Source: Variovorax sp. MHTC-1 (GTDB taxonomy: Bacteria; Pseudomonadota; Gammaproteobacteria; Burkholderiales; Burkholderiaceae_C). Taken from it: a stretch of 64,000 bases of DNA. This document shows, in pieces, positions 11,933 through 37,646 of the stretch. A program made the position numbers and the translations under genes. Every line of letters starts with the position of its first letter. The first letter of the stretch is position 1. The DNA is taken from assembly GCF_003984645.1 (NCBI RefSeq), contig NZ_RWKI01000007.1:62001-126000 (forward strand), read 5' to 3'. The notes below the pieces were generated by a model. It saw nothing but the letters and a program-made list of their open reading frames with translations, was not told the DNA's origin and ran no database searches.

Positions 11933-12892
11933 TCAAGGAAGCGGGGACATGGGGCTGAATGATCTTTGGCGCACGCGTAGCCGCAGCAGCCGGCGGCCGC
12001 GCAGCAGCCCGAGATCCGGCGCGAAGCGCCAGGCCAGCAGCAGTAGGGCGAGCAGGGCCGGGATCCAGCGCAGATCCGTGTCCGCCGCCTGGTGCTGCGC
12101 GAAGCGGCGGTCCAGCATGGCCGCCTTCAGCGCATCCGGCGTGTTCAGGCGCAGGTAGTCCACGCCGACGAGCTTGGCCAGCGTTCGCAGATGGTCCTCG
12201 CGCAGCTCGGACAGATGCTCGTGGTTCTGCGTGCCGCCGATGGCGGAGCCCTGCACCACGTCCTCGGGCTTCCAGTAGCCCGCGGGTTCGCCGTTGCTGC
12301 CGGTCTTCGGTATCGGCACCGGCACGTCGCCGCCGATGCCGACCAGCCAGCCCTTCACCTCGCCGGGCGTGACGTCGACCATCGGCGGCGTGTCATTGGC
12401 CCGCAGCGGCGGCGACTCCTGGCCATCGGTGATGAAAACGAATGCGGTGTGCGGACCGATGCTCCGGGCGCCGCGCACGGCCCAGGTCACGCCCTTGCCG
12501 ATGTTGCTGGCGTTGGCCCAGCGCATGCGGGCATCGATGCGCTCGAGCGAGGCGAGCAGCTCTTCGTAGTGGCTGCAGACCTCGATCGGCGCCAGGATCA
12601 CCAGCGAGCGGTAGTCGGCGAAGACGCTCCAGCCCACCTTGGAACCGCATGGCAATGCGGCCAGCGTATCGCGCATGGCTGCGCGCGCCAGCGTCAGCCG
12701 GCTGACCGCGGCATGGTTCAGCTCGACGTCCTCGACGTTCATGCTCTGCGTGATGTCGAAGCTGACCTGCCATTCGAACACCGGGCGCTGCAGCTGCATG
12801 CGCGGCGGCCAGGCCGCCAGTGCGAGCAACAGCAGGGCCGCCATCAGCGGCCAGTTTCCGCTGCTGTGGATGCGGCGCCAGAGAGTGTTCAT
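11933..12892 (-). CDS. mxaL: MxaL-like von Willebrand A domain membrane protein
   Basis: The 319-residue protein has an N-terminal membrane segment, then a vWA domain: FDITQSMNVED takes the place of the MIDAS DxSxS, with Thr for the first Ser, and VFITDGQESPP is the second MIDAS strand. A second membrane segment near 275-293 is followed by a basic tail. In methylotrophs MxaA, MxaK and MxaL serve metal (calcium) insertion into methanol dehydrogenase. It is the last gene of the minus-strand xox/mxa array. A palindromic repeat separates it from mxaK, so its expression may be lower. Confidence 0.78.
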   Translation of the reverse strand: MNTLWRRIHSSGNWPLMAALLLLALAAWPPRMQLQRPVFEWQVSFDITQSMNVEDVELNHAAVSRLTLARAAMRDTLAALPCGSKVGWSVFADYRSLVILAPIEVCSHYEELLASLERIDARMRWANASNIGKGVTWAVRGARSIGPHTAFVFITDGQESPPLRANDTPPMVDVTPGEVKGWLVGIGGDVPVPIPKTGSNGEPAGYWKPEDVVQGSAIGGTQNHEHLSELREDHLRTLAKLVGVDYLRLNTPDALKAAMLDRRFAQHQAADTDLRWIPALLALLLLAWRFAPDLGLLRGRRLLRLRVRQRSFSPMSPLP

Positions 12893-12907
12893 TGGATCGC
12901 CTCAGGT

Positions 12908-13091
12908 CTTGCTCCCTCCCCCTCCGGGGGAGGGCTGGGGTGGGGGCTCTTGGGCCTTTGAATCGGTTGCATGCTTTGTTGAGGCCCGGAGCCGGGGCGA
13001 ACTCCCGGCTCCGGCCTCACACCAAGCGCAACGCCGAAGCAAGCGCCCAGTGCCCCCACCCCAACCCTCCCCCGGAGGGGGAGGGAGCAGG
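12908..13091. repeat. Palindromic intergenic repeat element, short form, inside the mxa array
   Basis: The outer arms CTTGCTCCCTCCCCCTCCGG (from 12908) and CCGGAGGGGGAGGGAGCAGG (to 13091) are near-perfect inverted repeats. Inside lie a second inverted pair (CCCCACCCCAACCCTCCC against GGGAGGGCTGGGGTGGGG) and GAGGCCCGGAGCCGGG against CCCGGCTCCGGCCTC. The same arms recur at 27691-28431, so this is a family of mobile or dispersed palindromes. It fills the gap between mxaK and mxaL and would fold strongly in RNA. Confidence 0.8.
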
Positions 13092-13122
13092 ACCGAAGCC
13101 TCTTCACGCGGCCGTGCCCGGC

Positions 13123-13674
13123 TCATGGCAAATCCCCCGCGACGAATCCCGGAATCCGGACCCGCCGCTGCTCGACCGACTGCTGCTGCTCCGCGGAAAA
13201 GGCTTCCTGCTCTTCCGGCGCCAGGCGCAGCGCGCGCTCCAGGTTGTAGCGCGCATCCCAGTCCTGCGGCGCCACCCGCAGCAGGTCGCGCAATCGCTGC
13301 TTGCCCAGTTCGAACAGCGGCACGGCGCCGGTCTCCTGTGCCAGGCCTTGGCGCAGGTACATGTTGGCCAGGTTGAACAGCGCCTGCTGCGCGACGGCAT
13401 CGCGCTCGCCGTTCTGGATCAGGCCTGCGTAGCCCTTGAGCGCGGCCTCGTGATTGCCGGCTCTCGAGAGGGCCAGCGCCTGCGCCAGCTGCAGCTCTCG
13501 CGCGGAGCGCCGGGGCAGGGCCGCGGCTTCCTTGCCAGCCGGTGCGGCGGCGATGCGGGCGATCTCGGCATTGAGGCTCGTCGCCTGGCGCAGGCGCAAG
13601 TCCCGCTCCAGCGCTGCGCCGGCGCAGCACAGGCTCAGAACGCCGAAGAGCAGGTGTACGGTGCGTCGCTTCAT
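13123..13674 (-). CDS. mxaK: MxaK-like membrane-anchored TPR-type protein
   Basis: The 183-residue protein starts at ATG 13674, overlapping the mxaC stop by 4 bases. A hydrophobic anchor (about 5-20) is followed by helical repeats (AREL..AQALALSRAGNHEAALKGYA, ALFNLANMYLRQGL, DWDARYNLERALRLAPEE) of TPR character. This matches MxaK, one of three proteins needed for metal insertion into methanol dehydrogenase in Methylobacterium. Assignment rests on this architecture and the mxaR-S-A-C-K-L order rather than strong motifs. Confidence 0.75.
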   Translation of the reverse strand: MKRRTVHLLFGVLSLCCAGAALERDLRLRQATSLNAEIARIAAAPAGKEAAALPRRSARELQLAQALALSRAGNHEAALKGYAGLIQNGERDAVAQQALFNLANMYLRQGLAQETGAVPLFELGKQRLRDLLRVAPQDWDARYNLERALRLAPEEQEAFSAEQQQSVEQRRVRIPGFVAGDLP

Positions 13675-14663
13675 CGCCAGCTTTGCAACTGCAGCGCGCG
13701 GCAGGCCAGCAGGCCGGCGCAGCACAGCATCGCAGCAAGGTAGAAGGCGCCGCCATGGTCGCGCCGCGGCACCCGCTCGTGGATGGTCAGGGGGAAGTTC
13801 TGCTGCCGGTCGATCTCGGCCATCGCAGCGGCCATCGCGTTGGAGTCGTCCACCTGGTAGAGCCGGTAGGGCGTCGCCAACGTCTTGAAGAACTCATGCA
13901 GCGCCAGTTCCTCGCCGAGGCCATAGGCGCTCGCTGTGCTGGTGTTGAGGTTGGGCGAGTTCGGGCCGCTGCGCACGTAGATCCAGTAGAGGCCGATCTT
14001 CTCGCGCGCGAGGCCTGCCTGGATGCGTTGCCGCGTCGCTGCGTCGAGCTGGGCGCCGCCGTCCGAGACGATCAGGATCACGCGGCTTCCCGAGTAGCTG
14101 CGGTTCTCGAACTCCTCGATGGCGGCCAGGAGCGCGACACCCATGCGGGTTTCGGGCAGGCCGCGGCCGATGGCGCTGGCGGCGAGCGCGGCCTGTACCG
14201 TGTCCGTCTTCTGCGTGAAGGGCACGACGGCGATCGGCACCGTGCTGAAGGTCATGAAGGCGAAGCGGTTGTCGGGCCGCTTGGCGACGAAGTCACTCAA
14301 CAGGTCGCGCACGACTTTGGCCTTGGGCTCCTGCGACATGCGGCCGGCCGTCTGCAGGCCGTTGGTGTGGACCGTGGCATCCATGCTGCTGCTGCGGTCC
14401 ATCAGGATCAACACCTCGGCGCCGCGGCCGGTGCGCTGCACCTGGGCGCCCGACTGCCCGGGACCGGCGAGGCCGAGCACCGCAAGCGCCATGGCTGCGA
14501 CCGCCAAGCCGCGCCAGAGGAAACCGAGAAGGCGGCCGACTCGGTCGGCCGGCAGCCAGGCCAGGTAGGAGAACTCCAGCGTATCGCTGCGCCTGCGCAA
14601 CAGCGGCAGCAGCGCGAGCGGCAGCAGCAGGAGCATCCAGGGCTGGGCGAAGTCGAAGTGCAT
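13671..14663 (-). CDS. mxaC: MxaC-like vWA domain membrane protein (BatA type)
   Basis: The 330-residue protein has two N-terminal membrane segments (about 8-22 and 45-68), a vWA domain with a complete MIDAS (LMDRSSSMDA as DxSxS, a Thr in MTFST, LIVSDGGAQ) and a C-terminal membrane segment near 305-322. This BatA-like plan is that of MxaC. It probably works with the MoxR ATPase and the DUF58 protein as a membrane chaperone module. Its start lies 8 bases after the mxaA stop and its end overlaps mxaK. Confidence 0.8.
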   Translation of the reverse strand: MHFDFAQPWMLLLLPLALLPLLRRRSDTLEFSYLAWLPADRVGRLLGFLWRGLAVAAMALAVLGLAGPGQSGAQVQRTGRGAEVLILMDRSSSMDATVHTNGLQTAGRMSQEPKAKVVRDLLSDFVAKRPDNRFAFMTFSTVPIAVVPFTQKTDTVQAALAASAIGRGLPETRMGVALLAAIEEFENRSYSGSRVILIVSDGGAQLDAATRQRIQAGLAREKIGLYWIYVRSGPNSPNLNTSTASAYGLGEELALHEFFKTLATPYRLYQVDDSNAMAAAMAEIDRQQNFPLTIHERVPRRDHGGAFYLAAMLCCAGLLACRALQLQSWR

Positions 14664-14671
14664 GGTTCGCC

Positions 14672-15577
14672 TCAGGCCCGGTGGCGCTTCTCCGCATCGC
14701 GCAGGGCACGGCACAGCGGCTTGAGCGGATAGGGAGGGCCGGTCTCTGCAGCATCGGCGTTGCCCGCGAAGAAACGCCTCGTGGACTCGCGGTAGAAATC
14801 CTCGAGCCGCGCCTGCAGCGGGCGCAGATGGGGCGCCTCGGCCAGCAGCCGGGGCAGGCTGGCGCCGTGCACCACGTGCCCGGCGCTCGTGTTCAGCGCG
14901 CGATGCACGACGCGCCAGGCCTGCGCGCTGCCCGGGTCGTCGATGCGCTTGAGTTCGCGCCAGGCCTGCGCGAAAGGAAGGCGCCGCGCTTCGAGCGCAT
15001 TGCGCCAGGCCCACCAGGCGAGCCAGGCCAGCAGCACGGCCAGCAGGGCGGCGAGCGAAAGCCGCAGTTGCCGCTCGATGGCATCGGTCGGAAGCGCAGC
15101 GACCGGCCGGTCCGGGCGCAGCGGCTGCAGATCGCCGCGGCCGAAGGCTTCCGGCGGCGTCAGCGGTGCGATGCTGACCGGCCATGCGGGCAGCGCGAGT
15201 GTCGGGCCCGAGGCGGTGGCGATGCGCAGGGCCGGCAGCGCGATGGCGCTCAGCGCGCGCGGCGCGTTGATGAGCTGGTAGTCGACGACCAGCCAGCGCC
15301 GTCCCCGCGCATCGGTTTCGATCCGCGCCGTCCTGCGCTCCAGCCAGAGGTCGATCCGTCCCGGCGCCGGCAGGGCGCTGGGCTCGAGCGGCCGGTCCGC
15401 GAGCTCGAGCAGCACGCGCTGCGTCAATACGTCGCCCAGCACATGGCCGAAGCTGCGCGGTTGCTCGACCGTCGCGGCGACGGTGGGGCCCGCGAACTTG
15501 GCCGGATCTGCACTCAGCGCGAGGCCACTGGCGGCGCCGAGCGCCAGCGCCAGCAGCGCCGCCCGGACGGCCTTCAT
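14672..15577 (-). CDS. mxaA: MxaA-like membrane protein
   Basis: The 301-residue protein has a signal sequence (MKAVRAALLALALGAASGLALS), a periplasmic beta-rich domain of about 150 residues, one membrane segment (about 173-190, LLAVLLAWLAWWAW) and a cytoplasmic domain of about 110 residues. This is the arrangement of MxaA, required for calcium loading of MxaF-type methanol dehydrogenase. ATG 15577 overlaps the stop of mxaS by 4 bases, so it is coupled to that gene. Confidence 0.77.
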   Translation of the reverse strand: MKAVRAALLALALGAASGLALSADPAKFAGPTVAATVEQPRSFGHVLGDVLTQRVLLELADRPLEPSALPAPGRIDLWLERRTARIETDARGRRWLVVDYQLINAPRALSAIALPALRIATASGPTLALPAWPVSIAPLTPPEAFGRGDLQPLRPDRPVAALPTDAIERQLRLSLAALLAVLLAWLAWWAWRNALEARRLPFAQAWRELKRIDDPGSAQAWRVVHRALNTSAGHVVHGASLPRLLAEAPHLRPLQARLEDFYRESTRRFFAGNADAAETGPPYPLKPLCRALRDAEKRHRA

Positions 15578-16452
15578 GCCGCCGTCTCCAGGAAGTAGCG
15601 GGTGAGGGCTTCGGCGTCGAAGCGGCCGTGCAAATGGAAGGGCGGCATGCCGTGCGCGTCGAACAGCGTCCTGAGCTCGGCGCGCCGTTCTGCAACAGCG
15701 TCGCGCCATCGGGCGCGCAGCGATTCGCGCATCCACAGGCTGCGCCGCACGCCGCTTTCCGCATCGCTGAGGGCGACCAGCGCGCGCGCGGGCGGCGGCT
15801 CGGTTTCGGCCGGGTCCCAGACCACCACCGGGACGACGCAGGCCGGCGCCAGCTGCCGCAGCAGCTCGCCGAGCGCAGCGATCGGCCAGTGGAAATCGGA
15901 GGCGAGGAAAACCAGGCCGCCGCGGCCGACCAGGCGCTCGGTCGTGCGGCGCAGGCCGGCGAGTGCGCTGCTGCTGCCGTGCGGCACCGTGCCCGGCGCC
16001 GCGCGGCAGTCGCGCAGCATGCGCGCCATCAGGCTGCCGGTGCCGCGGCTGTGGCGCGCGGGCACGAACAGATCCTCGCGCTCGCGCTGGTCGAAGGCCA
16101 GCAGGCCCACCGTGTCGCCGCTGCGGAATGCGCTGTAGCCCAGCGCCTCCGCCAGATCGGCCACGACCTCGAGCTTGCGCCTCGCGGCGCCGAAATGCAT
16201 CGAGGCCGAGACATCCACCACCAGATGCACCGGGATCGCCACGCGCAGCCGATGGATGCGCACCAGCCAGTCGCCGCGACCTTCGCGCACGCTGGCGCGC
16301 AGATCGATGCGCCGCGGATCGGGATGGTCGAAGAGGCGCCGGTGCGCGGCGAACTCCTGTCCGCTGCCCTGGCTCAGGCCGCGCTGCGCGCCCGGGCGCC
16401 AGCCGCCGAAGCGGCGCGGCAGCTGGTAGTGGAATTCGTCGACGCGCTCCAT
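15574..16452 (-). CDS. mxaS: MxaS-like DUF58 protein
   Basis: The 292-residue soluble protein starts MERVDEFHYQLPRR. DUF58 features are seen: RRIDLRASVREG, then a vWA-like strand LVVDVSASMHFG (DxSxS), GLLAFDQRE and a later LASDFHW. DUF58 proteins pair with MoxR ATPases; the order moxR-DUF58-mxaA-vWA is that of mxaRSAC. It follows the ATPase gene by 15 bases. Confidence 0.82.
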   Translation of the reverse strand: MERVDEFHYQLPRRFGGWRPGAQRGLSQGSGQEFAAHRRLFDHPDPRRIDLRASVREGRGDWLVRIHRLRVAIPVHLVVDVSASMHFGAARRKLEVVADLAEALGYSAFRSGDTVGLLAFDQREREDLFVPARHSRGTGSLMARMLRDCRAAPGTVPHGSSSALAGLRRTTERLVGRGGLVFLASDFHWPIAALGELLRQLAPACVVPVVVWDPAETEPPPARALVALSDAESGVRRSLWMRESLRARWRDAVAERRAELRTLFDAHGMPPFHLHGRFDAEALTRYFLETAA

Positions 16453-16467
16453 CGCTGGCTCGGTGAT

Positions 16468-17487
16468 TCAGGGGGCGGCGATCTTGTCCATGATCTGTGC
16501 CACCAGCGCCTCCGACAGCTCGGCCCGGCGCAGCTCGTAGACCGGCGTGAAGAAGATGCGGTGCCCGAGCACCGAGGGCAGCACGGCCGCCAGGTCCGCC
16601 GGCTCCAGGTGCGTGCGACCCTCGAGCCAGGCCACGGTGCGCGCCGCCCGCAGCAGCGCGCTCATGCCGCGCGGGCTGGCGCCGGCGAGGATCAGGCGGT
16701 CCATGTCCACGCCATCGAGCCGGATGCCGAACTTCTGCGGCGTCTCGCTGGCTTCCCAGAGATCGAGCACATAGCGCTCGATGGTCTGGCTGGCGCGCAC
16801 CGTGCGCTGCACCTGTGCGCCGATGGCGTTGAGCCGGTCCCACGGCAGGATGGCGGACGCCACCTTGTCGATCAGGCCCTCGGTGTCGTGGAAGGCGGTG
16901 TCGAACACCAGCGACTGGCGGATGGCGCGGTCGGCGGGCTTGGGCATGTTCAGCTCGAACATGAAGCGGTCGCGCGCCGCGGATGCCAGCTCGAAGGTCT
17001 CCTCCCGCTCGACCTTGTTGCGGTCGGCGAACACCGTCATGTGCGGAAAGCTGTACTCGCGGTCGAAGGCGGAGACGGTGCGCTCGGCCATGGCGCGCAG
17101 CAGCAGCGACTGCACCTGCGGCCGGGCCCGGTTGATCTCGTTGAAGAAGAAGGTGACCAGGCGCTCGCCGTGGCGCAGCAGCGGTCCGGGGTCGATGCGC
17201 GGCCGGCCTTGGGCATCGACATAGGTGTGATAGACCAGGTCGCCCGGCATCAGGTCGACCGTGCCCTCGACGCGCTCGAAATCGCCGCCGATGGCGCGCG
17301 AGAAGGCGCGCAGCACCGTGGTCTTGCCGACGCCGACGTCGCCTTCGAGCAGTACGTGGCCGCGCGCGAACAGCGCGACGTTGATGAGGCGGATCGTCTG
17401 CGCCTGCCCGATCACCGCTTTCGCGACCTCGGCTTCGACGCGCAGCGCGAGTTGGCGCCAGTCTTCGAGTTGTTCTTGGGAGCCCAT
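16468..17487 (-). CDS. mxaR: MoxR-type AAA+ ATPase (MxaR)
   Basis: The 339-residue ATPase has Walker A GDVGVGKTT (about 49-57), Walker B FFFNEINRA and GASPRGMSALLRAAR in the C-terminal lid region. Members act with vWA proteins to insert cofactors or metals into large enzymes. In methylotrophs MxaR sits in the mxa operon, as here upstream of mxaS-A-C-K-L. It follows the mxaD-like gene by 19 bases. Confidence 0.88.
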   Translation of the reverse strand: MGSQEQLEDWRQLALRVEAEVAKAVIGQAQTIRLINVALFARGHVLLEGDVGVGKTTVLRAFSRAIGGDFERVEGTVDLMPGDLVYHTYVDAQGRPRIDPGPLLRHGERLVTFFFNEINRARPQVQSLLLRAMAERTVSAFDREYSFPHMTVFADRNKVEREETFELASAARDRFMFELNMPKPADRAIRQSLVFDTAFHDTEGLIDKVASAILPWDRLNAIGAQVQRTVRASQTIERYVLDLWEASETPQKFGIRLDGVDMDRLILAGASPRGMSALLRAARTVAWLEGRTHLEPADLAAVLPSVLGHRIFFTPVYELRRAELSEALVAQIMDKIAAP

Positions 17488-17506
17488 GGTGTCGGTTCCG
17501 GCGCCG

Positions 17507-18052
17507 CTACTTCGACTCGATCAGCTTCTTCAGGTTGTCGAGCCCGCTGCGGTAGACGCCGGTGACGGCCTTCAGCGCGGCCTCGTCGTTCTGCTCCGGC
17601 GGCGGGTTGTTGTTCGGAAAGCCGCGATAGAAGGCGCCGCGCCACTCGACCGTCGACTTGCCGCCGTCCGCGACGACCGAGAGCGTGGAGGTGTAGTTCG
17701 TCACCGGCAGCGCGCCGCCGTCCTTGGCGCGGTAGCCGTACTTCTTCTGCGCATCGTCGTAGCTTTCGAGTGTCTCGACGAGCGTGCCGCCGTCCTTGAG
17801 CTTGAGGCTTCTCACCGAGCCTACGGCGTTGCCCTTGTCGGCGGGGCTTTCGGCCACGGCCGGATGCCAGTCCTTCAGCGCGTTGAAGTTCTTGATCGCA
17901 GCCCAGACGGCATCCGCCGGCGCCTCGATGGTGACTTTTTCCGTCACCTTCTGGCGCGTCGGCCCGTGGGCCAGGCTGGAGGCCGATGCGGCGAGAAGCA
18001 GGGACGCAACGAGGATCGGGAAGGCCCGTCGGCGGGAAGCGTATGTCGGCAT
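17507..18052 (-). CDS. mxaD: MxaD-like SRPBCC family periplasmic protein
   Basis: The 181-residue protein has an N-terminal signal peptide (through ASASSLAHG, about 29) and an SRPBCC/START-type fold: VTIEAPADAVWAAIKNFNAL near 40-59, a central YGYRAKDGG, and a C-terminal helix GLDNLKKLIESK. MxaD of Methylobacterium belongs to this family and helps electron transfer between methanol dehydrogenase and its cytochrome. ATG 18052 follows a GGAA-containing site. The position just before mxaR supports the name. Confidence 0.75.
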   Translation of the reverse strand: MPTYASRRRAFPILVASLLLAASASSLAHGPTRQKVTEKVTIEAPADAVWAAIKNFNALKDWHPAVAESPADKGNAVGSVRSLKLKDGGTLVETLESYDDAQKKYGYRAKDGGALPVTNYTSTLSVVADGGKSTVEWRGAFYRGFPNNNPPPEQNDEAALKAVTGVYRSGLDNLKKLIESK

Positions 18053-18087: not shown

Positions 18088-19071
18088 TCAGGGATCGGCC
18101 GGCGCGCCGATGAAGGCGCCGAAGCCGCGGCTGTTCTTGCCCGTGGCGATGGTCTGGAGCTTGCGTCCGCTTTCGGCCTCCAGCACCTGCACGTTGTCGT
18201 CCATCCAGTTCACGACATAGACGCGGCCGGCGTGCGCGGCGATGCCCTCCGGGTAGGCGAAGCCGGGGAGGGTGCGCAGCACGCGCAGCGAATCGGCATC
18301 GACCACGCTGACGCTGTCGTCGCGCTGGTTGGTCACGTACAGCAGCGCGCCGCCCTGCGCCAGCGCCGCGCCGTAAGGGGCCTTGCCGACCTTCACGGTC
18401 GCGACGACGGCCGGCCGCCGCGTGTCGCGCACGTCGATCACCGAGATGTCGTCGCTCTGCACGTTGAGCGCATAGAGCCTTGCGCGCGCCGCGTCGTAGA
18501 GCAGCGCGAAGGGATGGCTGCCGACGCGAACGCGCGCCAGCACCCGCCGCGCTGTCGTGTCGATCACCGCCACGCTGTCGTCGTCGCGCTCGGCCACGAA
18601 CACGGTGGCCTCGTCGGTGTGCGCGGCCACGCCGGCCGGCGCGCGGCCCACCGGAATCGAGGCCAGGGGCGGCGCGGCCCCGCTGGCATGCGCGTCGAAC
18701 ACCAGCAGCCGGCCGGCGTACCAGTCGGCCACGTACAGCTGCCGGCCGTCGCCCGAGATGTCGAGGCCTACCGGCCCGTCTCCCGCTGGAAGCGTGCTCA
18801 CGACCTTCTGCTGGCGCATGTCGATGACCGAGATGGTCTTGCTGTCGGGGTTGGAGACGAAGGCGCGGCCGGCACGGCCCGACGCCACCACGCCGGCCGG
18901 CGACCGGCCGACCGCGACCGTGGCCACCACCTGCTGCGACGCAAGGTCGATCACCGACACGTCGTGGCTTCCCTGGTTGGTGATGTAGGCGAAGGGCGAG
19001 GCGCCGGCCGTGGTGCACAGCAGGAGGGCAGCGACCCATCCGCTGCGCACGGGTGTTGCGGCGCCCCTCAT
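18088..19071 (-). CDS. Exported YVTN-type beta-propeller protein
   Basis: The 327-residue protein has a signal peptide (to about 24) followed by seven or so repeats of the form VSVIDLASQQVVATVAVGRSP and VSVVDADSLRVLRTLPG, the YVTN/NHL-like propeller pattern. Such proteins accompany PQQ-dependent dehydrogenases and may bind the enzyme or its cytochrome, but a biochemical role is not established. A second, different propeller gene lies across the divergent promoter at 24640. It is probably cotranscribed with the xox genes. Confidence 0.85.
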   Translation of the reverse strand: MRGAATPVRSGWVAALLLCTTAGASPFAYITNQGSHDVSVIDLASQQVVATVAVGRSPAGVVASGRAGRAFVSNPDSKTISVIDMRQQKVVSTLPAGDGPVGLDISGDGRQLYVADWYAGRLLVFDAHASGAAPPLASIPVGRAPAGVAAHTDEATVFVAERDDDSVAVIDTTARRVLARVRVGSHPFALLYDAARARLYALNVQSDDISVIDVRDTRRPAVVATVKVGKAPYGAALAQGGALLYVTNQRDDSVSVVDADSLRVLRTLPGFAYPEGIAAHAGRVYVVNWMDDNVQVLEAESGRKLQTIATGKNSRGFGAFIGAPADP

Positions 19072-19092: not shown

Positions 19093-19467
19093 TCAGCGCC
19101 CGTTGGCCGGGCCGATGAAGCAGCCCTTTTTCACCTTGGCCTGGAGCGCGCGGTAGCGCTTGATATCGGCCTGGAGCTGTTCCGAATCGCGGATGTAGCC
19201 GCCGCGCTCGCCGCCGATGGTGGTGGCCTTGCTCGCGGTGCTCAGCTGCACGTAGTTCGCGTACTTCACCTCCTTGGCGAGCGCATCGAGCGCGCACGAG
19301 CACTTGTTGATCATCTCGAAGGTGCCGGCGCCTGGATGCGCGGCCATGCATTCCTGCACGTAGAGCACGCGGTCCACGGTGGGGAAGTCGTTCGCGGGCG
19401 AGGCGGCGTGCACGGCCATCGGCAGGCCGAGCAAGCACAGGAGGCGGAGCGTGTTCTTCATTGGCAT
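19093..19467 (-). CDS. Small exported protein of the xox cluster, unknown function
   Basis: The 124-residue protein has a signal peptide (LLCLLGLPMAVHA, cleavage about residue 21) and a mature part with four Cys: VQECMAAHP, NKCSCALD and KKGCFIG. Together these could make two disulfides or bind metal. No known domain is recognised. It lies between the propeller gene and another unknown exported protein, all facing the same way behind xoxJ. ATG 19461 is an alternative start. Confidence 0.7.
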   Translation of the reverse strand: MPMKNTLRLLCLLGLPMAVHAASPANDFPTVDRVLYVQECMAAHPGAGTFEMINKCSCALDALAKEVKYANYVQLSTASKATTIGGERGGYIRDSEQLQADIKRYRALQAKVKKGCFIGPANGR

Positions 19468-19494: not shown

Positions 19495-20178
19495 TCAGCG
19501 CGCCGGCGCCTGGGCGCCGTCGATGAGAAGTTCCTCGACGAGCAGGGGTTTGGCGATCAGGCCTTCGCCCCGGATCTGGGTCCGGATGCCATAGACACCT
19601 CCGGGCACGGCGGTCGAGAGCAGGAAGCGGTAGTTCTTCTTCGCGAACTTTTCGTACCTCGGCCGGTTCGGGTCGTCCAGGAAGGGGCTGAACACGATCT
19701 CCTTGCCCTTCACCGCGCGCCCCTGGTAGCGAATCGTCACGTCGCGCACTTCGGCGCCCTGGTAGATCGCCATGCGCAGGCGCTTGCGGAAATGATTCTC
19801 GGAGCCGCCCGTGAGGCGCTTCATCTCGCGCACGTCATGCTCGAGGAAGTAAAGGATGACGGGGTTGCCTTCGGCCGCCGCCACCTCTGGCACCTGCAGC
19901 TTGCGCGCGCCGCTCAGGAATGCGCCCTTGGCATCGCAGCAGCTGCCGTCGGCCTTGGCGCTCAAAGCCACGGTGACGCTGTCGGCGAAAGCATCTTCCA
20001 GGCTGCCTGTCTTGCTGAAGGTGTAGCGCAGCAGGGTGGGCGGCTGCAAGGTCTGCAGCTGCGGCGTCATGAACAGCAGGCGCTCCGCGGGCGAGAAGTC
20101 GGGCTTGTCGCCCTCGGCCTGCGAGGCCAGGGGCGAGACGAGCAAGGCGCAGAGCGAGGCGGCGATGGCGAAGCGCAT
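19495..20178 (-). CDS. Exported protein of the xox cluster, unknown function
   Basis: The 227-residue protein (from ATG 20178) has a signal peptide ending near ASQAEG (about 22) and a mature beta-rich domain with KADGSCCDAKG, a vicinal Cys pair, and conserved-looking FLEHDVREMKRLTGGSENHFRKRLR. This combination is not an enzyme family I can name. It is placed ten bases after xoxJ and should be on the xoxFGJ message, so a role in enzyme maturation or metal handling is possible. An in-frame ATG 39 bases upstream would overlap xoxJ. Confidence 0.72.
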   Translation of the reverse strand: MRFAIAASLCALLVSPLASQAEGDKPDFSPAERLLFMTPQLQTLQPPTLLRYTFSKTGSLEDAFADSVTVALSAKADGSCCDAKGAFLSGARKLQVPEVAAAEGNPVILYFLEHDVREMKRLTGGSENHFRKRLRMAIYQGAEVRDVTIRYQGRAVKGKEIVFSPFLDDPNRPRYEKFAKKNYRFLLSTAVPGGVYGIRTQIRGEGLIAKPLLVEELLIDGAQAPAR

Positions 20179-20188
20179 GGAATTCGGC

Positions 20189-21079
20189 TCAGTTGTTGGG
20201 CGCCCCGAACGATGCATCGACCAGCGGGACCCCGTATTCCTTGAGGATCGCCTGGATCTCGGGCGCCTTGGATTCGATCAGCCCCTCGACCTGCTGCTTC
20301 CATTCGCGTTCGCCGTAGCGCACGCCCATGGCCATCTGGTAGTCGAGCCGGATTCCTTTTTCGGACTTCAGCGGCACCACGACCAAGGCCGGGTTCTTGA
20401 CCCGCTGGGCGAAGAATCCGGCGATCGGACCCCAGACGACCACGGCGTCGAGCTTGCCCCCGGCCAGGTCCCGCTCGACGATCTCACCCGGATACTGCGC
20501 CGGGTCGGCGCTCATGAGCTTGTAGGGCACGCCTTGTTCGAGCAGGCCGTGCCGGCCGAGCCATTGCGAGGCCGGCGAGCGGTCGTAGATGCCGATGCGC
20601 AGCGACTTCAGCTTGGCCGGATCGAGCTTGAGGAAATCCTCTGCCGAGGCGACATGGTCCATTCCCTTGCCCTTCGGGAAGACGAGCGCGTAGGTCGAGC
20701 GGTAGTACGGCTTGGTGACCGAGACCTCGTCGAGCCCGACGGGCACGCCCATCACGATGTCGCAGGGATAGTCCTGTCCCGGCAGCTTGAAGCGCAGCGT
20801 GTTGCGGAAGAAGGCCAGCCGCTGCGGGAACGAGTAGTAGGTGACCGGAAGTCCGAGCGCCTTGCCGAACAGCTCGGCGATGCGGTTCTCGATGCCCTCG
20901 CCCTTGGTGTTGGAGAAGGGCATGTTGTTCGGATCCTGGCACACGCGCAGCGCCTTGCGCGCCGGCGTGTCCTGGGCGATGGCGGGAATCAGCGCGCAGC
21001 AGCATGCCGCGCCCACGACGCCCGCGCGCAGACGGGCGCCGAAGGGCCGCGGCCTGCCAGCAGGCTGCCGGTCGGTCAT
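20189..21079 (-). CDS. xoxJ: XoxJ, periplasmic solute-binding-like methanol dehydrogenase accessory protein
   Basis: The 296-residue protein has a twin-Cys signal region and a periplasmic binding protein fold. MxaJ/XoxJ marks are ALRVCQDPNNMPFSNTKGEGIEN near 44-66 and DIVMGVPVGLDEVSVTKPYYRSTYALV. XoxJ is encoded with xoxF and xoxG and is thought to help fold or activate the dehydrogenase in the periplasm. Its start overlaps the xoxG stop by 4 bases (ATGA). Confidence 0.92.
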   Translation of the reverse strand: MTDRQPAGRPRPFGARLRAGVVGAACCCALIPAIAQDTPARKALRVCQDPNNMPFSNTKGEGIENRIAELFGKALGLPVTYYSFPQRLAFFRNTLRFKLPGQDYPCDIVMGVPVGLDEVSVTKPYYRSTYALVFPKGKGMDHVASAEDFLKLDPAKLKSLRIGIYDRSPASQWLGRHGLLEQGVPYKLMSADPAQYPGEIVERDLAGGKLDAVVVWGPIAGFFAQRVKNPALVVVPLKSEKGIRLDYQMAMGVRYGEREWKQQVEGLIESKAPEIQAILKEYGVPLVDASFGAPNN

Positions 21080-21480
21080 TTGATTTCTTCCACTCTGGCG
21101 CGCGTGATCGCGCCGTCGGATCGGCCCTTGAGGTAGGCGTAGAGCTGGTTGATGTTGTCCATCACCGCAGGGTTGTTGCCGAAGCTCTGCATGCCCTTGT
21201 CGAGCTTTCCGTCGCGCACGATCTTGATGAACTCTTCCTTCTTCAGCGTCTTCAGGCTGTTGATGAGAGAAGGGCCGACCATGCCTTCCTGGTTGGGGCC
21301 GTGGCAGCGATCGCAGGCGGCGGAGCGCCAGGCGCGAAATCCCTTCATGGTTTCCGGGTCCACCTTGTAGCCCTCCGTCACCTTGTAGGGCGCGGGGTCT
21401 GTCGCGGCGACAGCCATGGTGCAGGCCACGCCCGCGAGCAGAAGAAGGGAAGGCAGCAACGTTGACGAACGAAATTTCAT
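21076..21480 (-). CDS. xoxG: XoxG-type c-type cytochrome
   Basis: The 134-residue protein has a signal peptide (to about ATA, residue 26) and a single haem motif CDRCH (56-60); a likely axial Met is in GMQSFG. It is the expected electron acceptor of XoxF. It is shorter than many XoxG/cytochrome cL proteins, but lies directly behind xoxF (100 bases) and before xoxJ in the standard order. Confidence 0.88.
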   Translation of the reverse strand: MKFRSSTLLPSLLLLAGVACTMAVAATDPAPYKVTEGYKVDPETMKGFRAWRSAACDRCHGPNQEGMVGPSLINSLKTLKKEEFIKIVRDGKLDKGMQSFGNNPAVMDNINQLYAYLKGRSDGAITRARVEEIK

Positions 21481-21580: not shown

Positions 21581-23407
21581 TCAGTTCGGCAGCGCGAACA
21601 CAGTCAGCGAGCCGCCGAGCTCGGTGTACTGGCTCAGCTCCTTGTAGCCGCCGACAGCGCCGAGCCCTTCGGTGCTCTTCTCCGGATCGATGCCTGCCGC
21701 CATGCCGATGCCGGCCCAGCCGCCGATGCCCGAGAGCACGCCGATGTACTGCTTGCCCTTGTTCTCATAGGTGAACACGTTGCCGATGATGCCGGAAGGG
21801 GTCTTGAACTTGAAGAGCTCCTTGGTGATGTCCTTGGCATCGACGCACTTGAGGTAGCCCTCCAGCGTGCCGTAGCAGGAGATGCCGCCCGCGGTGTTCA
21901 GCGAGCCGCTCCATACCGAGAACTTCTCCGCCTTGCTCTGCACGATCTTGCCGGTGCCGGCATCCCAGGTGATGTAGTTGCCCATGCCACCGTGGCTGCC
22001 CGGCGTGGGATACATGGAGAGCGTGGCACCCACGTAGGGCTGGCCGGCCGTGTATTCGACCTTGAACGGCTCGTAGTCCATGCAGACGTGGTTCGTCGGC
22101 ACGTAGAAGAGCTTGGTGTTGGGGTCGTAGGAAGCCGGCTGCTGGTCCTTGGTGCCCAGTGCCGCGGGGCAGATGCCCTTGGTATTGACATCGGGGCCGT
22201 TCTTTGCGGTCGAGTACTTGGCCACCACCTGCGGCCGGCCGGTCTTCATGTCGACGTGCGTGGCCCAGTTCACCTTGGGGTCGAATTTCTCGGCCACCAG
22301 CAGCGCACCGGTCACGCGGTCGAGCGTGTAGGCGAAGCCGTTGCGGTCGAAGTGCACCAGCGCCTTGGTCGGCTTGCCCTTGACGTTGATGTCCGCCAGG
22401 ATCATTTCGTTGATGCCGTCGAAGTCCCATTCGTCGAACGGCGTCATCTGGTAGACCCAGTTGACCTTGCCGGTGTCCACGTCGCGCGACCAGATGCTCA
22501 TCGACCACTTGTTGTCGCCGGGGCGCTGCGATGGATTCCAGGTCGACGGATTTCCGGTGCCGTAGTACACCGCGTTGGTCGCCTTGTCGTAGCTGTACCA
22601 GCCCCAGGTGGTGCCGCCGCCGATCTTCCACTGGTCGCCCTGCCAGGTCTTCAGCGAGGAGTCCTTGCCGACCGGCGCGAGCTTGCCGTCGGTCCAGGTC
22701 ATGGTCTTCGCAGGGTCCATCAGCATCTCTTCGTCCGGCCCGGTGCTGTAGCCCTTCCAGGCCAGCTTGCCGTCCGAGATGTTGTAGGCCGCCAGGAAGC
22801 CGCGCACGCCGAACTCGCCGCCGCTGATGCCGGTGATGACCTTGTCCTTGAAGACATGGGGCGCATTGGTGTTGGTGGCGCCGACCTTCGGATCGCCGTT
22901 CTTCACCGACCACACCACCTTGCCGGTCTTGGCGTCGAGCGCGACCAGGGTGGTGTCGGCCTGCTGCAGGAAGACCTTGCCCTCGGCATAGGCCAGGCCG
23001 CGGTTCACCGTGTCGCAGCACATGACCGCAATCACCGACTGGTCCTGCTTCGGCTCGTACTTCCACAGGATCTTCTGTGTATCCACATCGAGCGCGAACA
23101 CCTTGTTCGGGAAGGGCGAATGCAGGTACATCGCGCCGTCGACCACCAGGGGCGAGCCCTCGTGGCCGCGCAGCACGCCGGTGGAGAAGGTCCACGCGAC
23201 CTGCATCTTGCCGACGTTGCTCTTGGTGATCTGCTTCAACTTGCTGTAGCGCTGGTTGAACATGTCGCCCGATTGCATCGCCCAGTTCTTCGAGTTGGCG
23301 ACGTTCTTCTCTACATCGGCATTGGCAAGCGCCAAAGCCGGAAGAGCAAGCATCGCGACGCCGACATGCCGTACGAGACGGCCGACGATCTGCCTGGAAA
23401 ACTTCAT
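21581..23407 (-). CDS. xoxF: XoxF, lanthanide-type PQQ methanol dehydrogenase
   Basis: The 608-residue quinoprotein has a signal peptide (cleavage about 28-30) and an eight-bladed PQQ propeller. The vicinal disulfide is C130-C131 in AVMCCDT; metal and PQQ ligands are E198 (GGEFG) and N286 (GNPSTWN); catalytic Asp328 is followed by Asp330 in the motif WDFDG. The second Asp distinguishes lanthanide-dependent XoxF from calcium MxaF, which has WDYAG there. It oxidises methanol in the periplasm and passes electrons to XoxG. GAGGAG 7-12 bases upstream fixes ATG 23407. No mxaI small-subunit gene follows, as is normal for XoxF. Confidence 0.96.
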
Positions 23408-23889
23408 AAATGTCTCCTCACATTTGACAGTGGGTATCGAACACGAATTGGCAGCAGCCTTCGGATCTATTCGATCGGTTTGGCGAAGGCTGCGGACCGC
23501 AACATCCATGCCCACCATGCCGCAACGCAATCGCCGGTCTCGTCGATGCGGCTTCGATCGGCAGGGTACGCTGTCTCTTCGGCGGATGCCGGTTTCGGGC
23601 GCTGCAAGAGGACGATCGGACCTAGGGAAATCCCCAGCGTTGGATGCCTTCGCCGCGCCGCACGTCACGCATCGCCGCGGCAGTGCGCCGCGTGCGCATC
23701 CAAATTTGACGCAAAGTGTCTCGCGCCAAGTGCCGATGTCGAGCGCCGAGGGGCGGCAGAGGCGCTTGCTCAGGCAAATGTGTAGGACGGATTCCAGTAA
23801 AACCCTGAGGCGGGCAGAGGCACAGAATTTGCGATTCGATGACAACCGGCACATACATTGAGACAGCTCGACGCATCCCTTCGGCCTCC
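23408..23889. promoter_or_regulatory. Divergent intergenic region between xoxF and the PQQ-associated ABC genes
   Basis: About 480 bases without a convincing gene separate xoxF (minus) from the ABC ATPase (plus) and must hold both promoters. The xoxF-proximal 60 bases carry its ribosome site. No clear paired -35/-10 boxes or operator were identified with confidence. A short in-frame extension of the ATPase gene to ATG 23839 is possible. Confidence 0.5.
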
Positions 23890-24603
<714 letters not shown>

Positions 24604-24639
24604 AACTCGCCGACCCCGAAAACAAAGATGGAGACATGC

Positions 24640-25635
24640 ATGCAAAGACCTTCCCTTCCGATCCTGCGCACGCGGCTTCGCACCGCCGCCGGCGCACTGG
24701 CGCTGGCGGCCGCGAGCCAGGCCGTGCTGGCGCAGGGCACCGCCTACGTGTCGAGCGAGAAAGACAACGCGCTGACGGTGATCGACCTGGCAACGCTCGC
24801 CGTCAAAGGCACGATCCCCACCTGCAAGCGCGCGCGCCATCTCCAGCTGACGCCCGAGCGCCAGCTCATGGTCGCCTGCACCGACTCCAACGAGGCCGAC
24901 CTGATCGACCCGGCCAGCGGCAAGTCGGTGCGCCGCATCCCGCTGGGCGACGAGCCCGAGGCCTTCGATCTGTCGCCCGACGGCAAGGTCATCTATGTCT
25001 CCAACGAGGACGCGGGCGAGGCCAGCTTCATCGATGCGGCCAGCGGCAAGAAGCTGCGCGCCGTGAAGGTGGGCGCGGAACCGGAAGGCGTCAAGGTGAG
25101 CGCCGATGGCAAGACCCTGTACGTCACCTCCGAGGTGGCGAGCCTGGTGCATGTGATCGACACCGCGAGCGGCAAGGTCGTCAAGAACATCCGGGTCGGC
25201 AAGCGGCCGCGGCGCATGGCGATCACGCCCGACGGCAAGGAGCTGTGGATCACCAACGAGCTGGGCGCCACCGTCAGCATCGTCTCGACCGCCACCAACG
25301 AGGTGATCGACACCGTGAAGTTCGAGCTCAAGGGTGCGCGCGCCGAGGACATCACGCCGGTCGGCATCCAGATGACGAAGGACGGCCGGCGGGCCTTCGT
25401 CGGCCTCGGGCGCGCGAACCACGTCGCCTTCGTCGATGTGGCCAGCCGCAAGGTCGGCCCGCTGGTGCTGGTCGGCAAGCGCGCCTGGAACGTCGCGCTC
25501 GACAAGGCAGAGGCGCGGCTCTACGTCGTCAACGGGCTCTCCGACGACGTGACGGTGGTCGATGTGGCCGGCGCCAAGGCGATCAAGAGCGTTCCGGTCG
25601 GACGCGTGCCCTACGGACTCGTGATCGTGGAATGA
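24640..25635 (+). CDS. PQQ-associated YVTN beta-propeller protein
   Basis: The 331-residue protein has a signal peptide (to VLAQG, about 28) and seven propeller repeats: NALTVIDLATLAVKGTIP, GKVIYVSNEDAGEASFIDAASGK, GKTLYVTSEVASLVHVIDTASGK and similar. Proteins of this type occur with the ABC genes beside PQQ dehydrogenases. A GGAGA site favours ATG 24640 over ATG 24628. The stop overlaps the next gene's start by 4 bases, so it is in one operon with the transporter. Confidence 0.88.
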   Translation: MQRPSLPILRTRLRTAAGALALAAASQAVLAQGTAYVSSEKDNALTVIDLATLAVKGTIPTCKRARHLQLTPERQLMVACTDSNEADLIDPASGKSVRRIPLGDEPEAFDLSPDGKVIYVSNEDAGEASFIDAASGKKLRAVKVGAEPEGVKVSADGKTLYVTSEVASLVHVIDTASGKVVKNIRVGKRPRRMAITPDGKELWITNELGATVSIVSTATNEVIDTVKFELKGARAEDITPVGIQMTKDGRRAFVGLGRANHVAFVDVASRKVGPLVLVGKRAWNVALDKAEARLYVVNGLSDDVTVVDVAGAKAIKSVPVGRVPYGLVIVE

Positions 25636-26810
25636 GGACGCGCACACCGCTTTCCCGGCTCTCGCTCGCATGGCTGGCGGCGCTTCTCGCCGCGCCTGCG
25701 CCGGCGGCCGCGGCGGTGCTCAAGGCCACCCTGATCACGCCGGCGGACGATGCCCGCATGGAGCGTTCGCGCATCGAGCGCGCCTACCTCGGACATCCGG
25801 GCGGCGCGCTCGCGGAGGGCCTGGAGCTGGCCGTCGACGAGGCCAGGTTCGAGCTGGAGGCCGCGGGCGCGGAGGTGGCGCTGGCCAGCGCGCCGGCCGC
25901 TTCGGTCGATGCGGCGCGCGCCGCGGCCGTGGCGGCCGAGAAGAACGGCGCCGCGGTGCTGCTGACCGACCTGCCCGCCGAATGGACGCTGGCGGTTGCC
26001 GATGCGGTGAAGCTGCCGGTGCTGAATCTGAGCGACGCGTCCGACCGCTTGCGCCAGCAGGATTGCCGCGCCCGCCTGTTCCATCTGATTCCGAGCGAGC
26101 GCATGCGCAGCGATGCGCTGGCCCAGACGCTGGTGTCCCGCAAATGGAGCAAGCTGCTCCTGCTGGTGGGCAGCAGCGCCCAGGATGCCTCGCGCGCGGC
26201 GACGGCGCAGGCGTCGATCAAGCGCTACGGACTGCAACTGGTGGGCAGCAAGCCGTTCAAGCTGTCGGCCGACCCGCGCGAGCGCGACCTGGCCAACCCG
26301 CTGCTGCTGACCGCGGGCAGCAGCTACGACGCCGTCTGGGTGGTCGACAGCGACGGTGAATTCGCCCGCACGCTGCCCTATCGCACCGTGCTGCCGCGCC
26401 CGGTGGTGGGCGACGGCGGCCTGGTGGCGCTGGCCTGGCACGCGCAGTTCGAGCGCTACGGTGCGCCGCAGGTTGCGCGGCGCTTCGCCAAGGCGGCGAA
26501 GCGGCCGATGACCGCGCACGACTGGGCCGCGTGGATGGCCGGCAAGACGCTGACGGCCGTGGCGATCGCCGCGCCCAAGGGTTCGAACGGTGCCTGGGCC
26601 CAGGCCTTGGCGAAGAGCGCCCTGGATGGCTCAAAGGGCACCGGCCTGAGCTTCCGCGCCTGGGACGGCCAGCTGCGCCAGCCCATGCTGCTCACCGACG
26701 GGCAGGGCGTGATTTCGCAGGCGCCGGCCGAAGGCCTGCTGCACCCCCGCAACGTGCTCGACACGCTGGGCGCGGATGCGCCGGAGAAGCTATGTCCGAA
26801 CGCGCGCTGA
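25632..26810 (+). CDS. PQQ-associated ABC transporter substrate-binding protein
   Basis: The 392-residue protein has a signal peptide (to about PAAAAVL, 27) and a type I periplasmic binding fold: LKATLITPADDARMERSRIERAYLG, ALAEGLELAVDEARFELEAAG and ASIKRYGLQLVGSKPFKL. It resembles the branched-chain amino-acid-type binders specific to PQQ-linked catabolic loci. A binding protein together with an ABC-2 type permease is unusual, since ABC-2 systems are normally exporters. It overlaps its upstream neighbour by 4 bases and the permease by 19. Confidence 0.85.
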   Translation: MRTRTPLSRLSLAWLAALLAAPAPAAAAVLKATLITPADDARMERSRIERAYLGHPGGALAEGLELAVDEARFELEAAGAEVALASAPAASVDAARAAAVAAEKNGAAVLLTDLPAEWTLAVADAVKLPVLNLSDASDRLRQQDCRARLFHLIPSERMRSDALAQTLVSRKWSKLLLLVGSSAQDASRAATAQASIKRYGLQLVGSKPFKLSADPRERDLANPLLLTAGSSYDAVWVVDSDGEFARTLPYRTVLPRPVVGDGGLVALAWHAQFERYGAPQVARRFAKAAKRPMTAHDWAAWMAGKTLTAVAIAAPKGSNGAWAQALAKSALDGSKGTGLSFRAWDGQLRQPMLLTDGQGVISQAPAEGLLHPRNVLDTLGADAPEKLCPNAR

Positions 26811-27670
26811 AAACCCCGCAGGACGCGAGCGTCGAGCCGATGGCGCGGCGCGGGCTGGGCCACGCCTTGCAGGCGATGCGCGCCATCGTGCTGCGCGAGC
26901 TGTACAAGTTCTCGCAGCAAACGGGACGGCTGGTGTCGGCGCTGGTTCGGCCGCTGCTGTGGCTGGCCGTGTTCGCCGCGGGCTTTCGCAACGTCTTCGG
27001 CGTCGCGATCGTCGAGCCCTACGACACCTACATTCCGTACGACGTGTACATCGTGCCGGGGCTGGTCGGCATGGTGCTGCTGTTCAACGGCATGCAGTCC
27101 TCGCTCGCGATGGTCTACGACCGCGAGATGGGCCTGATGCGCCTGCTGCTCACCGCGCCGCTGCCGCGGCCCTGGCTGCTGTTCTCCAAGCTGTGCGCCA
27201 CCGCGCTGCTGTCGGTGCTGCAGGCGATCGCCTTCGTGGCGGTGGCCGCGGCGATCGGCACCGAACTGCCGCTGTTGTCGCTCGCCGGCCTGCATGCGCT
27301 CGCGGCGCTGGCGGCCGGCGCGCTCATGCTGGGCGCGCTCGGGCTGCTGCTGTCGGTGCACATCAAGCAGCTGGAGAACTTCGCCGGCACGATGAACTTC
27401 GTCATCTTCCCGATGTACTTCCTGTCGACCGCGCTCTATCCGCTGTGGAAGCTGCAGGAGTCGGGCGCCGAATGGGTGTACCAGCTGGCGCGTTTCAATC
27501 CCTTCACCTACGCGGTGGAGTGGATCCGCTTCGCTCTCTACGGCAAGGACCCGGGTCTCGCGCCCTATGTCGTGCTCGGCTGCCTGGTCGTCTTCTTCGG
27601 CCTCGCCTGCTGGGGCTACGACCCGCAGCGCGGCTTTGGCGGGCTGACCAAGCGGGGAGGCGGCGGATGA
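26792..27670 (+). CDS. PQQ-associated ABC-2 type permease
   Basis: The 292-residue membrane protein has six predicted helices (LLWLAVFAAGF, VPGLVGMVLLFNGM, LLSVLQAIAFVAVAAAI, AALAAGALMLGALGLLL, FVIFPMYFLSTALYPLW, VVLGCLVVFFGLACWGY) and the ABC2_membrane pattern near YDREMGLMRLLLTAPLPRP. It pairs with the ATPase at 23890. It starts inside the 3' end of the binding-protein gene (19-base overlap), pointing to coupling. The operon ends here in front of a long inverted repeat. Confidence 0.88.
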   Translation: MSERALKTPQDASVEPMARRGLGHALQAMRAIVLRELYKFSQQTGRLVSALVRPLLWLAVFAAGFRNVFGVAIVEPYDTYIPYDVYIVPGLVGMVLLFNGMQSSLAMVYDREMGLMRLLLTAPLPRPWLLFSKLCATALLSVLQAIAFVAVAAAIGTELPLLSLAGLHALAALAAGALMLGALGLLLSVHIKQLENFAGTMNFVIFPMYFLSTALYPLWKLQESGAEWVYQLARFNPFTYAVEWIRFALYGKDPGLAPYVVLGCLVVFFGLACWGYDPQRGFGGLTKRGGGG

Positions 27671-30486: not shown

Positions 30487-32073
<1,587 letters not shown>

Positions 32074-32097
32074 CCCGGTCCACGAGGAGAGACAGAC

Positions 32098-32517
32098 ATG
32101 CGAATCACGCAAGGCACCTTTTCATTCCTGCCTGACTTGAGCGACGAGCAGATCAAGCGCCAGGTCGAGTATTGCCTCGGAAAGGGCTGGGCGATCGGCA
32201 TCGAGTACACCGACGACCCGCATCCGCGCAACACCTTCTGGGAGATGTTCGGCAATCCGATGTTCGACATCCAGGATCCGGCCGGCGTCATGCTCGAGCT
32301 CGCGGCCTGCCGCAAGACCTTCGGGCAGCAGTACATCCGCGTCACGGCCTTCGACTCGACGCACGGAACCGAGTCGGTCGTGATGTCCTTCATCGTCAAC
32401 CGGCCGGCCGACGAGCCCGGCTTCCGCCTGATCCGCACCGAGGAGCCGGGCCGCACCATCCGCTACAGCATCGAGAGCTATGCCGTGCAGGCGCGGCCCG
32501 AAGGCGCGCGGTATTGA
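32098..32517 (+). CDS. cbbS: Ribulose-bisphosphate carboxylase small subunit, red-type
   Basis: The 139-residue subunit starts [19 protein letters not shown] and has the family [29 protein letters not shown]. Its long C-terminal extension ([30 protein letters not shown]) is typical of red-type small subunits, which form a central beta-barrel in the L8S8 enzyme. It follows cbbL by 24 bases with a GAGGAGAG ribosome site. Confidence 0.97.
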
Positions 32518-32543
32518 GCCCGGGCCCGACGCGAGACAACCGC

Positions 32544-34213: not shown

Positions 34214-34214
34214 G

Positions 34215-35629: not shown

Positions 35630-35638
35630 GAGATCGAC

Positions 35639-36712: not shown

Positions 36713-36757
36713 ACGGCGCCGGGCCGTCCGCACGAATTCTTCATTCCCGAGGCCACC

Positions 36758-37636: not shown

Positions 37637-37646
37637 GAACTTCGTC

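Follow-up and report, generated by a model that had tools for sequence, protein, structure and literature searches.

The mxaRSACKL cassette behind xoxFGJ in Variovorax: a probable maturation module of the lanthanide methanol dehydrogenase XoxF

How a trivalent lanthanide ion gets into the active site of the periplasmic methanol dehydrogenase XoxF is a question raised by a row of genes in a 64,000-nucleotide stretch of the genome of Variovorax sp. MHTC-1 (contig NZ_RWKI01000007.1, positions 62,001 to 126,000; hereafter, the window), in which mxaD and the six-gene cassette mxaRSACKL follow xoxFGJ and neither mxaF nor mxaI is found. MxaA, MxaC, MxaK and MxaL are reported to serve calcium insertion in MxaFI (PMC6028718). 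The first-pass annotation of the locus, made from the sequence alone, had proposed that these accessory genes either mature XoxF with lanthanide or are held over from a lost calcium enzyme. The analysis described here suggests that, in this lineage, the cassette is probably dedicated to the maturation of XoxF. The dedication to XoxF is the part of this conclusion in which we have high confidence; that metal loading is the exact step served, as analogy would have it, we give about an even chance.

Gene content of the locus and the search for MxaFI

Read on the minus strand from 23407 to 11933, the row consists of xoxF-G-J, u240, u124, a gene for a YVTN beta-propeller protein, mxaD and mxaR-S-A-C-K-L (Table 1). 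All seven mxa homologues that had been reported to follow xoxFGJ on the same strand are indeed there, each with an undisrupted reading frame. Profiles built from the window mxa genes and their relatives, when applied to the mxaFI loci that we fetched, recovered the order mxaI-R-S-A-C-K-L-D in 12 of 12, and the six genes R-S-A-C-K-L are collinear and on one strand in the window as they are in all these loci; the gene names thus rest on synteny and similarity. The same six genes, in the same order and on the same strand, make up the accessory part of the mxaFJGIRSACKLD operon of Methylobacterium and Methylophilaceae, which also includes mxaD, and a YVTN gene adjoins mxaD in 7 of the 12 mxaFI loci, as it does in the window. 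The window differs from this operon in that mxaF and mxaI are missing, the set stands behind xoxFGJ, and mxaD precedes mxaR rather than following mxaL.

The Asp, Thr and Ser of the MxaL motif D-x-T-x-S are invariant among 18 aligned sequences (alignment A1), and the Walker A residues of mxaR and the D-x-S-x-S motif of MxaC are nearly so. No Pfam family matched mxaA, mxaK or mxaL at an E-value of 0.01. Naming the genes after a Bat-type operon was rejected: the BatA, BatB and BatC models, which are of the Leptospira type, scored only 31, 16 and 16 bits against cut-offs of 380, 350 and 175, and the R-S-A-C-K-L profiles have their matches in mxaFI loci.

The absence of mxaF and mxaI, noted earlier for the surroundings of the cassette, extends to the genome as a whole (5.88 Mb, 125 contigs, completeness 100), in which the MxaI model PF02315 has no match; nor does it have any in 14 control genomes. 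The search itself works, given that the same model detected MxaI elsewhere, both in the order (4 of 300 genomes) and in the phylum (8 of 299); these 12 genomes provided the 12 mxaFI loci described above. With TIGR03075, only two pyrroloquinoline quinone (PQQ) alcohol dehydrogenases were identified in the window's genome, XoxF and one of the quinohemoprotein type. The latter (L005, G000:C104) is a 725-amino-acid open frame on another contig, with the sequence NWDYTA, a C-terminal haem-type motif CVFCH, and Thr in place of the lanthanide Asp of XoxF.

In the window XoxF, the motif DEWDFDG at residue 325 contains an extra Asp, two residues past the Asp that we take to be catalytic. Such an extra Asp predicts lanthanide dependence (PMC12628762). 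The solved structures nearest to the window XoxF, 6dam (962 bits) and 6oc5 (913 bits), are both named lanthanide-dependent methanol dehydrogenase XoxF, and the best chain with another name reaches 651 bits. The clade number in the designation "XoxF5-like" is our assumption, taken over from these nearest enzymes. Across the loci analyzed, the lanthanide Asp is present in 65 of the 67 XoxF sequences from loci without mxaI, the remaining two ending before the motif, and Ala occupies this position in all 12 MxaF sequences encoded beside mxaI.

Pairing of the cassette with XoxF in related genomes

The distribution of the cassette gives an indication of its client. We searched samples of the family, genus, order and phylum, each a draw from a larger group; in the family sample of 200 genomes, XoxF was counted at 80% identity or more and MxaL at E < 1e-40. 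XoxF was found in 26 of these genomes, MxaL in 23 and MxaI in none. MxaL is present in 22 of the 26 genomes with XoxF and in only 1 of the 174 without it (Fisher p 3e-24; here and below, the test treats genomes as independent, although they are related). The 22 genomes with both proteins span 17 genera by group codes, and the single genome with MxaL but without XoxF is 76% complete (G104). These counts omit the XoxF matches of 44-45% identity in G097 and G198 and the weak MxaL matches in G014 and G129, and split matches, such as the XoxF of G101, were counted once. Among the 99 genomes of the genus, XoxF and MxaL were found in 27 each, and the two sets are identical (a 48% XoxF match in G821 and an MxaL match at 5e-4 in G848 are left out). 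Two kinds can be distinguished among these: 21 genomes, including that of the window, in which XoxF is at least 95% and MxaL at least 78% identical to the window's, and 6 genomes with XoxF at 83-86% and MxaL at 44-47%. Because the cassette and xoxF are linked in this genus, its pairing partly reflects one inherited event.

The cassette could instead be a passenger on a methylotrophy island whose target is something other than XoxF maturation, for example the uptake of lanthanides, sensing or envelope stress, as may be the case for other MoxR-VWA operons. The known targets of MoxR-VWA systems are diverse, weak matches to BatA and BatC were detected, and the xox row adjoins PQQ_ABC transporter genes as well as an operon for the Calvin cycle, all of which would suit a passenger or regulatory role. 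However, the genes themselves are those of the mxaFI accessory set, and the co-occurrence holds where no neighbourhood was seen. In 13 family genomes, the cassette and xoxF were not observed as neighbours, lying on different contigs in 9 of these; once the 9 genomes with XoxF and MxaL within 20 kb are taken out, the table becomes 13, 4, 1 and 173 (p 7e-16). We consider a passenger or regulatory role quite improbable.

At the level of the order (300 genomes), scoring was limited to 7 candidates per genome for MxaL and 4 for XoxF, and absences are accordingly weaker than presences. MxaL was found in 25 genomes, 4 of which have MxaI; 16 of the other 21 have XoxF. The remaining five (G200, G352, G417, G446 and G475) show no XoxF match at 1e-150, but four of them are small genomes of one family (f26), which we infer to be Methylophilaceae, and a more distant XoxF may have escaped detection there. 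XoxF was counted in 33 order genomes, that is, 36 matches less three genomes with only a 51% MxaF beside mxaI.

The arrangement of the genes was compared in the best 80 of 356 loci from named relatives, a choice that favours near kin, with stretches reaching 10 kb to each side. The window's gene order recurs in 11 of the 11 Variovorax loci among these, which rules out a chance neighbourhood; the closest are those of Variovorax sp. CF079 and V. paradoxus ISL-79, with MxaL 89-90% identical. In the 80 loci, xoxF lies within the stretch in 32 cases and MxaI in none, with seven loci in which xoxF is cut at the stretch end counted as having it (71-72% identity) and L136 (31%) as lacking it; YVTN matches below 150 bits are not shown in this comparison. 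Loci cut by contig or stretch ends stay in all counts, including the 23 xoxF loci of the family.

Overall, all six genes were called in 129 of 143 cassettes. In the family, the xox unit consists of xoxF-G-J-u240-u124; the YVTN gene and mxaD were called after it in 6 of the 23 loci, some stretches ending earlier, and they also accompany the xox unit in two genomes without an MxaL match (G058, G170). The mxaRSACKL genes are located behind xoxF in Variovorax and, elsewhere, divergent from it, near it or away from it, and are a second, movable module beside the xox unit. The first-pass annotation had treated mxaD-R-S-A-C-K-L as one set. All its members are present, but mxaD, together with the YVTN gene, also goes with the xox unit, and in the window a palindrome parts mxaK from mxaL. 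In three genomes (G060, G172 and G081; loci L066, L067, L069 and L071-L073), both types of cassette occur in separate places, away from xoxF.

History and function of the cassette

The window set shares both homology and gene order with the accessory genes of mxaFI, as it would if an ancestral mxaFI operon had lost its catalytic genes and the accessory genes lingered unused. The same pattern has been read in this way in Sphaerotilus, where partial mxa sets in 6 listed genomes of 20 are taken as remnants (PMC13300288). Sphaerotilus, a relative within Burkholderiales, resembles the window's genome in combining mxa accessory genes and XoxF5 with no MxaFI (PMC13300288), but its sets are partial whereas that of the window is complete. 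Against a remnant, MxaI was found in none of the 200 family genomes while MxaL tracks XoxF, and the window mxa genes, all of them open, are under purifying selection. The ratios of nonsynonymous to synonymous substitution rates (dN/dS) are well below 1, at 0.05-0.37 for R-S-A-C-K-L (against four Variovorax loci and one further locus) and 0.19-0.40 for mxaD (against the four Variovorax loci), and those of xoxF are 0.08-0.16. In a relative, L116, the mxaL stretch contains one stop codon, at residue 301 of 314, that is, at the end of the protein tail.

The phylogeny points in the same direction. A tree was built from R, S, A, C and L of 102 cassettes hand-picked from the 143; both this tree and those of the clade tests below are quick and unrooted, and long branches and an uneven letter composition were flagged in them. 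All 12 mxaFI-linked cassettes fall on one side of a branch with a support of 96 in the Shimodaira-Hasegawa-like approximate likelihood ratio test (SH-aLRT), and the window's cassette lies outside this group, joining those of Variovorax and then of Methylibium, Ideonella and Piscinibacter. In clade tests on 47 of the 102 rows, with groups named after the first tree had been seen, a clade of window-type cassettes with the four Methylophilaceae-like mxaFI cassettes was rejected (p 2e-5), as was a clade with the other eight (p 8e-4), so that the window's set does not derive from inside the mxaFI group. A clade with all 12 was not rejected (p 0.062), which leaves room for a very old common origin. 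Save for such an origin, the survey, the selection and the tree led us to set aside the remnant explanation; we regard it as highly improbable, and the hold-over from a lost calcium enzyme proposed in the first-pass annotation is disfavoured.

Accessory sets without mxaFI have been reported before. In Methylophilaceae, MxaRSACKL belongs to the core genome together with XoxFJG; strains JLW8 and 301 have two copies of MxaRSACKL without mxaFI, and in strain 13 one set is located three genes from a laterally acquired xoxFJG (PMC4109929). As in the window, organisms relying on XoxF have thereby retained the set in the absence of mxaFI, but the extra sets of Methylophilaceae mostly occupy other chromosomal sites and lack mxaD (PMC4109929), whereas the window's set is in the xoxF row with mxaD. 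On our tree, the extra cassettes of the fetched Methylophilaceae-like family form a branch of their own. The occurrence of the cassette without mxaFI has already been published, in 2014 for Methylophilaceae and in 2026 for Sphaerotilus; what is new here is the pairing of the cassette with XoxF across a family and a genus and the test against the remnant explanation. In the literature searched, mostly without subscription papers, we found no mutant study of mxaRSACKL with XoxF and no survey tying the cassette to XoxF beyond these two groups.

The cassette could also have a wider remit, as a general periplasmic helper that remodels or loads several quinone-cofactor dehydrogenases. Its possible clients would be XoxF, merely the commonest of them, MxaFI, and perhaps quinohemoprotein alcohol dehydrogenase or the tryptophylquinone amine dehydrogenases. 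Such a helper would be in keeping with the 74 cassettes that lie in stretches longer than 12 kb containing neither xoxF nor mxaI. In five Paraburkholderia loci (L149, L137, L155, L160 and L170), a mauB-like gene for the heavy chain of methylamine dehydrogenase lies downstream of the cassette and, in L149 (13812-19419), is followed by mauE-like, mauA-like (light chain), cytochrome and aldehyde dehydrogenase genes. There are pqqE-like genes, named by eye, near four other cassettes, and the window's genome itself has the quinohemoprotein-type enzyme described above. On the other hand, in both the genus and the family the co-occurrence is with XoxF as such, and the amine-dehydrogenase neighbourhood is found in one related group and possibly stems from one event. 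We consider a general helper rather unlikely. A common neighbour was sought for the 74 cassettes away from xoxF, and none covers more than 8 of these loci.

A module dedicated to XoxF would work as follows. MxaR, a cytoplasmic AAA+ ATPase, and MxaS would drive a complex in the membrane, made up of MxaA, MxaK and the two VWA proteins MxaC and MxaL (the membrane topology of the latter four proteins was judged by eye). This complex would remodel apo-XoxF and PQQ in the periplasm such that the lanthanide can be loaded, as NorQ/NorD do for iron, and MxaD and the YVTN protein might act at or after the loading step. Co-occurrence, conserved linkage and purifying selection support the role in XoxF maturation that the first-pass annotation had suggested; for the insertion of lanthanide, the argument runs by analogy with NorQ/NorD and with the calcium role of MxaA, MxaC, MxaK and MxaL in MxaFI. 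NorQ/NorD is a MoxR-VWA metal-insertion pair that delivers iron into nitric oxide reductase (PMC13036017), and this and other MoxR-VWA pairs combine, like the window, a MoxR-type AAA+ protein with a VWA partner acting on a metalloenzyme (PMC13036017, PMC9976466). The window system differs from NorQ/NorD in its periplasmic client and in having two VWA-type proteins along with a DUF58 protein, MxaA and MxaK. A role with lanthanide enzymes is also favoured by an evolved Methylobacterium extorquens that needs the lanthanide enzyme ExaF, in which expression of the mxa accessory genes (and mxaI) rises with mxaF off (PMC8969499).

Several lines of evidence weigh against a dedicated XoxF module. The mxa genes of M. 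extorquens, R-S-A-C-K-L included, go down with lanthanum while xoxFGJ go up (PMC6414531); mxaACKLD and mxaRSEH are listed in a review as not required for XoxF (PMC11845868); and growth on lanthanides with XoxF is seen in a Methylosinus strain that has more than 6 kb deleted around its mxa cluster (PMC7104280). In our own data, XoxF occurs without an MxaL match in 4 of the 26 family genomes and 17 of the 33 order genomes, so the cassette is not a general need of XoxF, and in the Paraburkholderia group the cassette stands by a methylamine-dehydrogenase-type cluster instead. Moreover, at the cut-offs used, no residue in MxaA, MxaC, MxaK or MxaL separates mxaFI-linked from other cassettes, so that these proteins provide neither a signature by which lanthanide and calcium cassettes could be told apart nor a pointer to a metal switch; MxaR differs at three positions and MxaS at one, all of them conservative changes.

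A further step, which we put forward tentatively and consider doubtful, is that the cassette loads lanthanide at the expense of ATP and evolved in matched pairs with XoxF, so that MxaFI would be a later borrower of machinery whose first client was XoxF. In favour of matched pairs, Variovorax XoxF at 95-98% identity to the window's always goes with cassette type A (21 genomes, including that of the window) and that at 83-86% always with type B (6 genomes), and the linkage of the cassette to XoxF changed many times on the cassette tree (it needs 11 changes, or at least 9 going by starred branches).

Should XoxF in many soil and root bacteria depend on MxaRSACKL, the view that these genes are not needed (PMC11845868) would become lineage-specific, and the remnant label of the Sphaerotilus paper would not hold for these bacteria. 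The window would then also offer a simple genetic system for a lanthanide inserter, with one gene row, one methanol dehydrogenase and no MxaFI background.

The gene row and its surroundings

The intergenic gaps between xoxF and mxaL do not exceed 100 bases, with several overlaps, except for 230 bases before mxaL, and from this spacing we infer a putative single operon. A scan for promoters and terminators yielded no promoter-like sites, and its 9 terminator-like sites are close to the mean of 7.0 in shuffled sequence, so that it carries no information. The palindrome at 12905-13094 splits mxaK from mxaL, and none of the 11 Variovorax loci examined has its core words at this site; the older start of mxaL may be an ATG that overlaps the stop codon of mxaK.

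Table 1. Features of the xoxF-mxaL row of the window
Feature	Position	Strand	Evidence
xoxF (XoxF5-like, 608 aa)	21581..23407	-	TIGR03075, 727 bits; motif DEWDFDG
xoxG, cytochrome c	21076..21480	-	PF13442; called in 23/23 family xoxF loci
xoxJ, periplasmic binding-protein-like	20189..21079	-	position and conservation, 22/23 family xoxF loci
u240, conserved secreted-type protein	19495..20178	-	18/23 family xoxF loci; alignment A2
u124, conserved small secreted-type protein	19093..19467	-	20/23 family xoxF loci
YVTN beta-propeller protein	18088..19071	-	TIGR02276; adjoins mxaD in 7/12 mxaFI loci
mxaD, SRPBCC protein	17507..18052	-	PF10604, 122 bits; after mxaL in 12/12 mxaFI loci
mxaR, MoxR-type AAA+ ATPase	16468..17487	-	PF07726, PF17863; Walker A GDVGVGKT
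mxaS, DUF58 protein	15574..16452	-	PF01882
mxaA	14672..15577	-	profile match in expected place in 12/12 mxaFI loci; alignment A3
mxaC, VWA-domain membrane protein	13671..14663	-	PF13519
mxaK	13123..13674	-	position, 12/12 mxaFI loci; match to BatC TPR protein weak and far below cut-off
palindromic stretch between mxaK and mxaL	12905..13094		190 bp; 54-nt arms, 89% complementary
mxaL, VWA-like protein, motif DITQSMNV	11933..12892	-	alignment A1

Among the remaining genes of the row, xoxJ has no Pfam match at 1e-5, and u240 and u124 have no Pfam or NCBIfam match at 0.01. The u240 protein shows invariant residues in its alignment (A2) and has no match in the Protein Data Bank by sequence. Both u240 and u124 accompany xoxFGJ also in genomes without an MxaL match. 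A xox row resembling that of Variovorax is present on a contig binned as Desulfovibrionaceae (L118); there, mxaR directly follows u124, with no room for the YVTN gene and mxaD, and the contig is likely mis-binned.

Divergently from xoxF, the plus strand of the window encodes a PQQ_ABC set at 23839-27670 (ATPase, propeller, binding protein and PedC-type permease), at least part of which also adjoins xoxF in loci from 6 further genomes of the family (L078, L082, L084, L085, L095 and L102). Some 6 kb from the xox row, at 29512-40737, there is a LysR regulator with Calvin-cycle genes for the RuBisCO large subunit, rpe, fructose bisphosphatase, phosphoribulokinase, transketolase and aldolase. Methanol oxidation feeding CO2 fixation has been reported in Bradyrhizobium (PMC12628762), and the proximity of these genes to the xox row would fit, by analogy, the same coupling in Variovorax.

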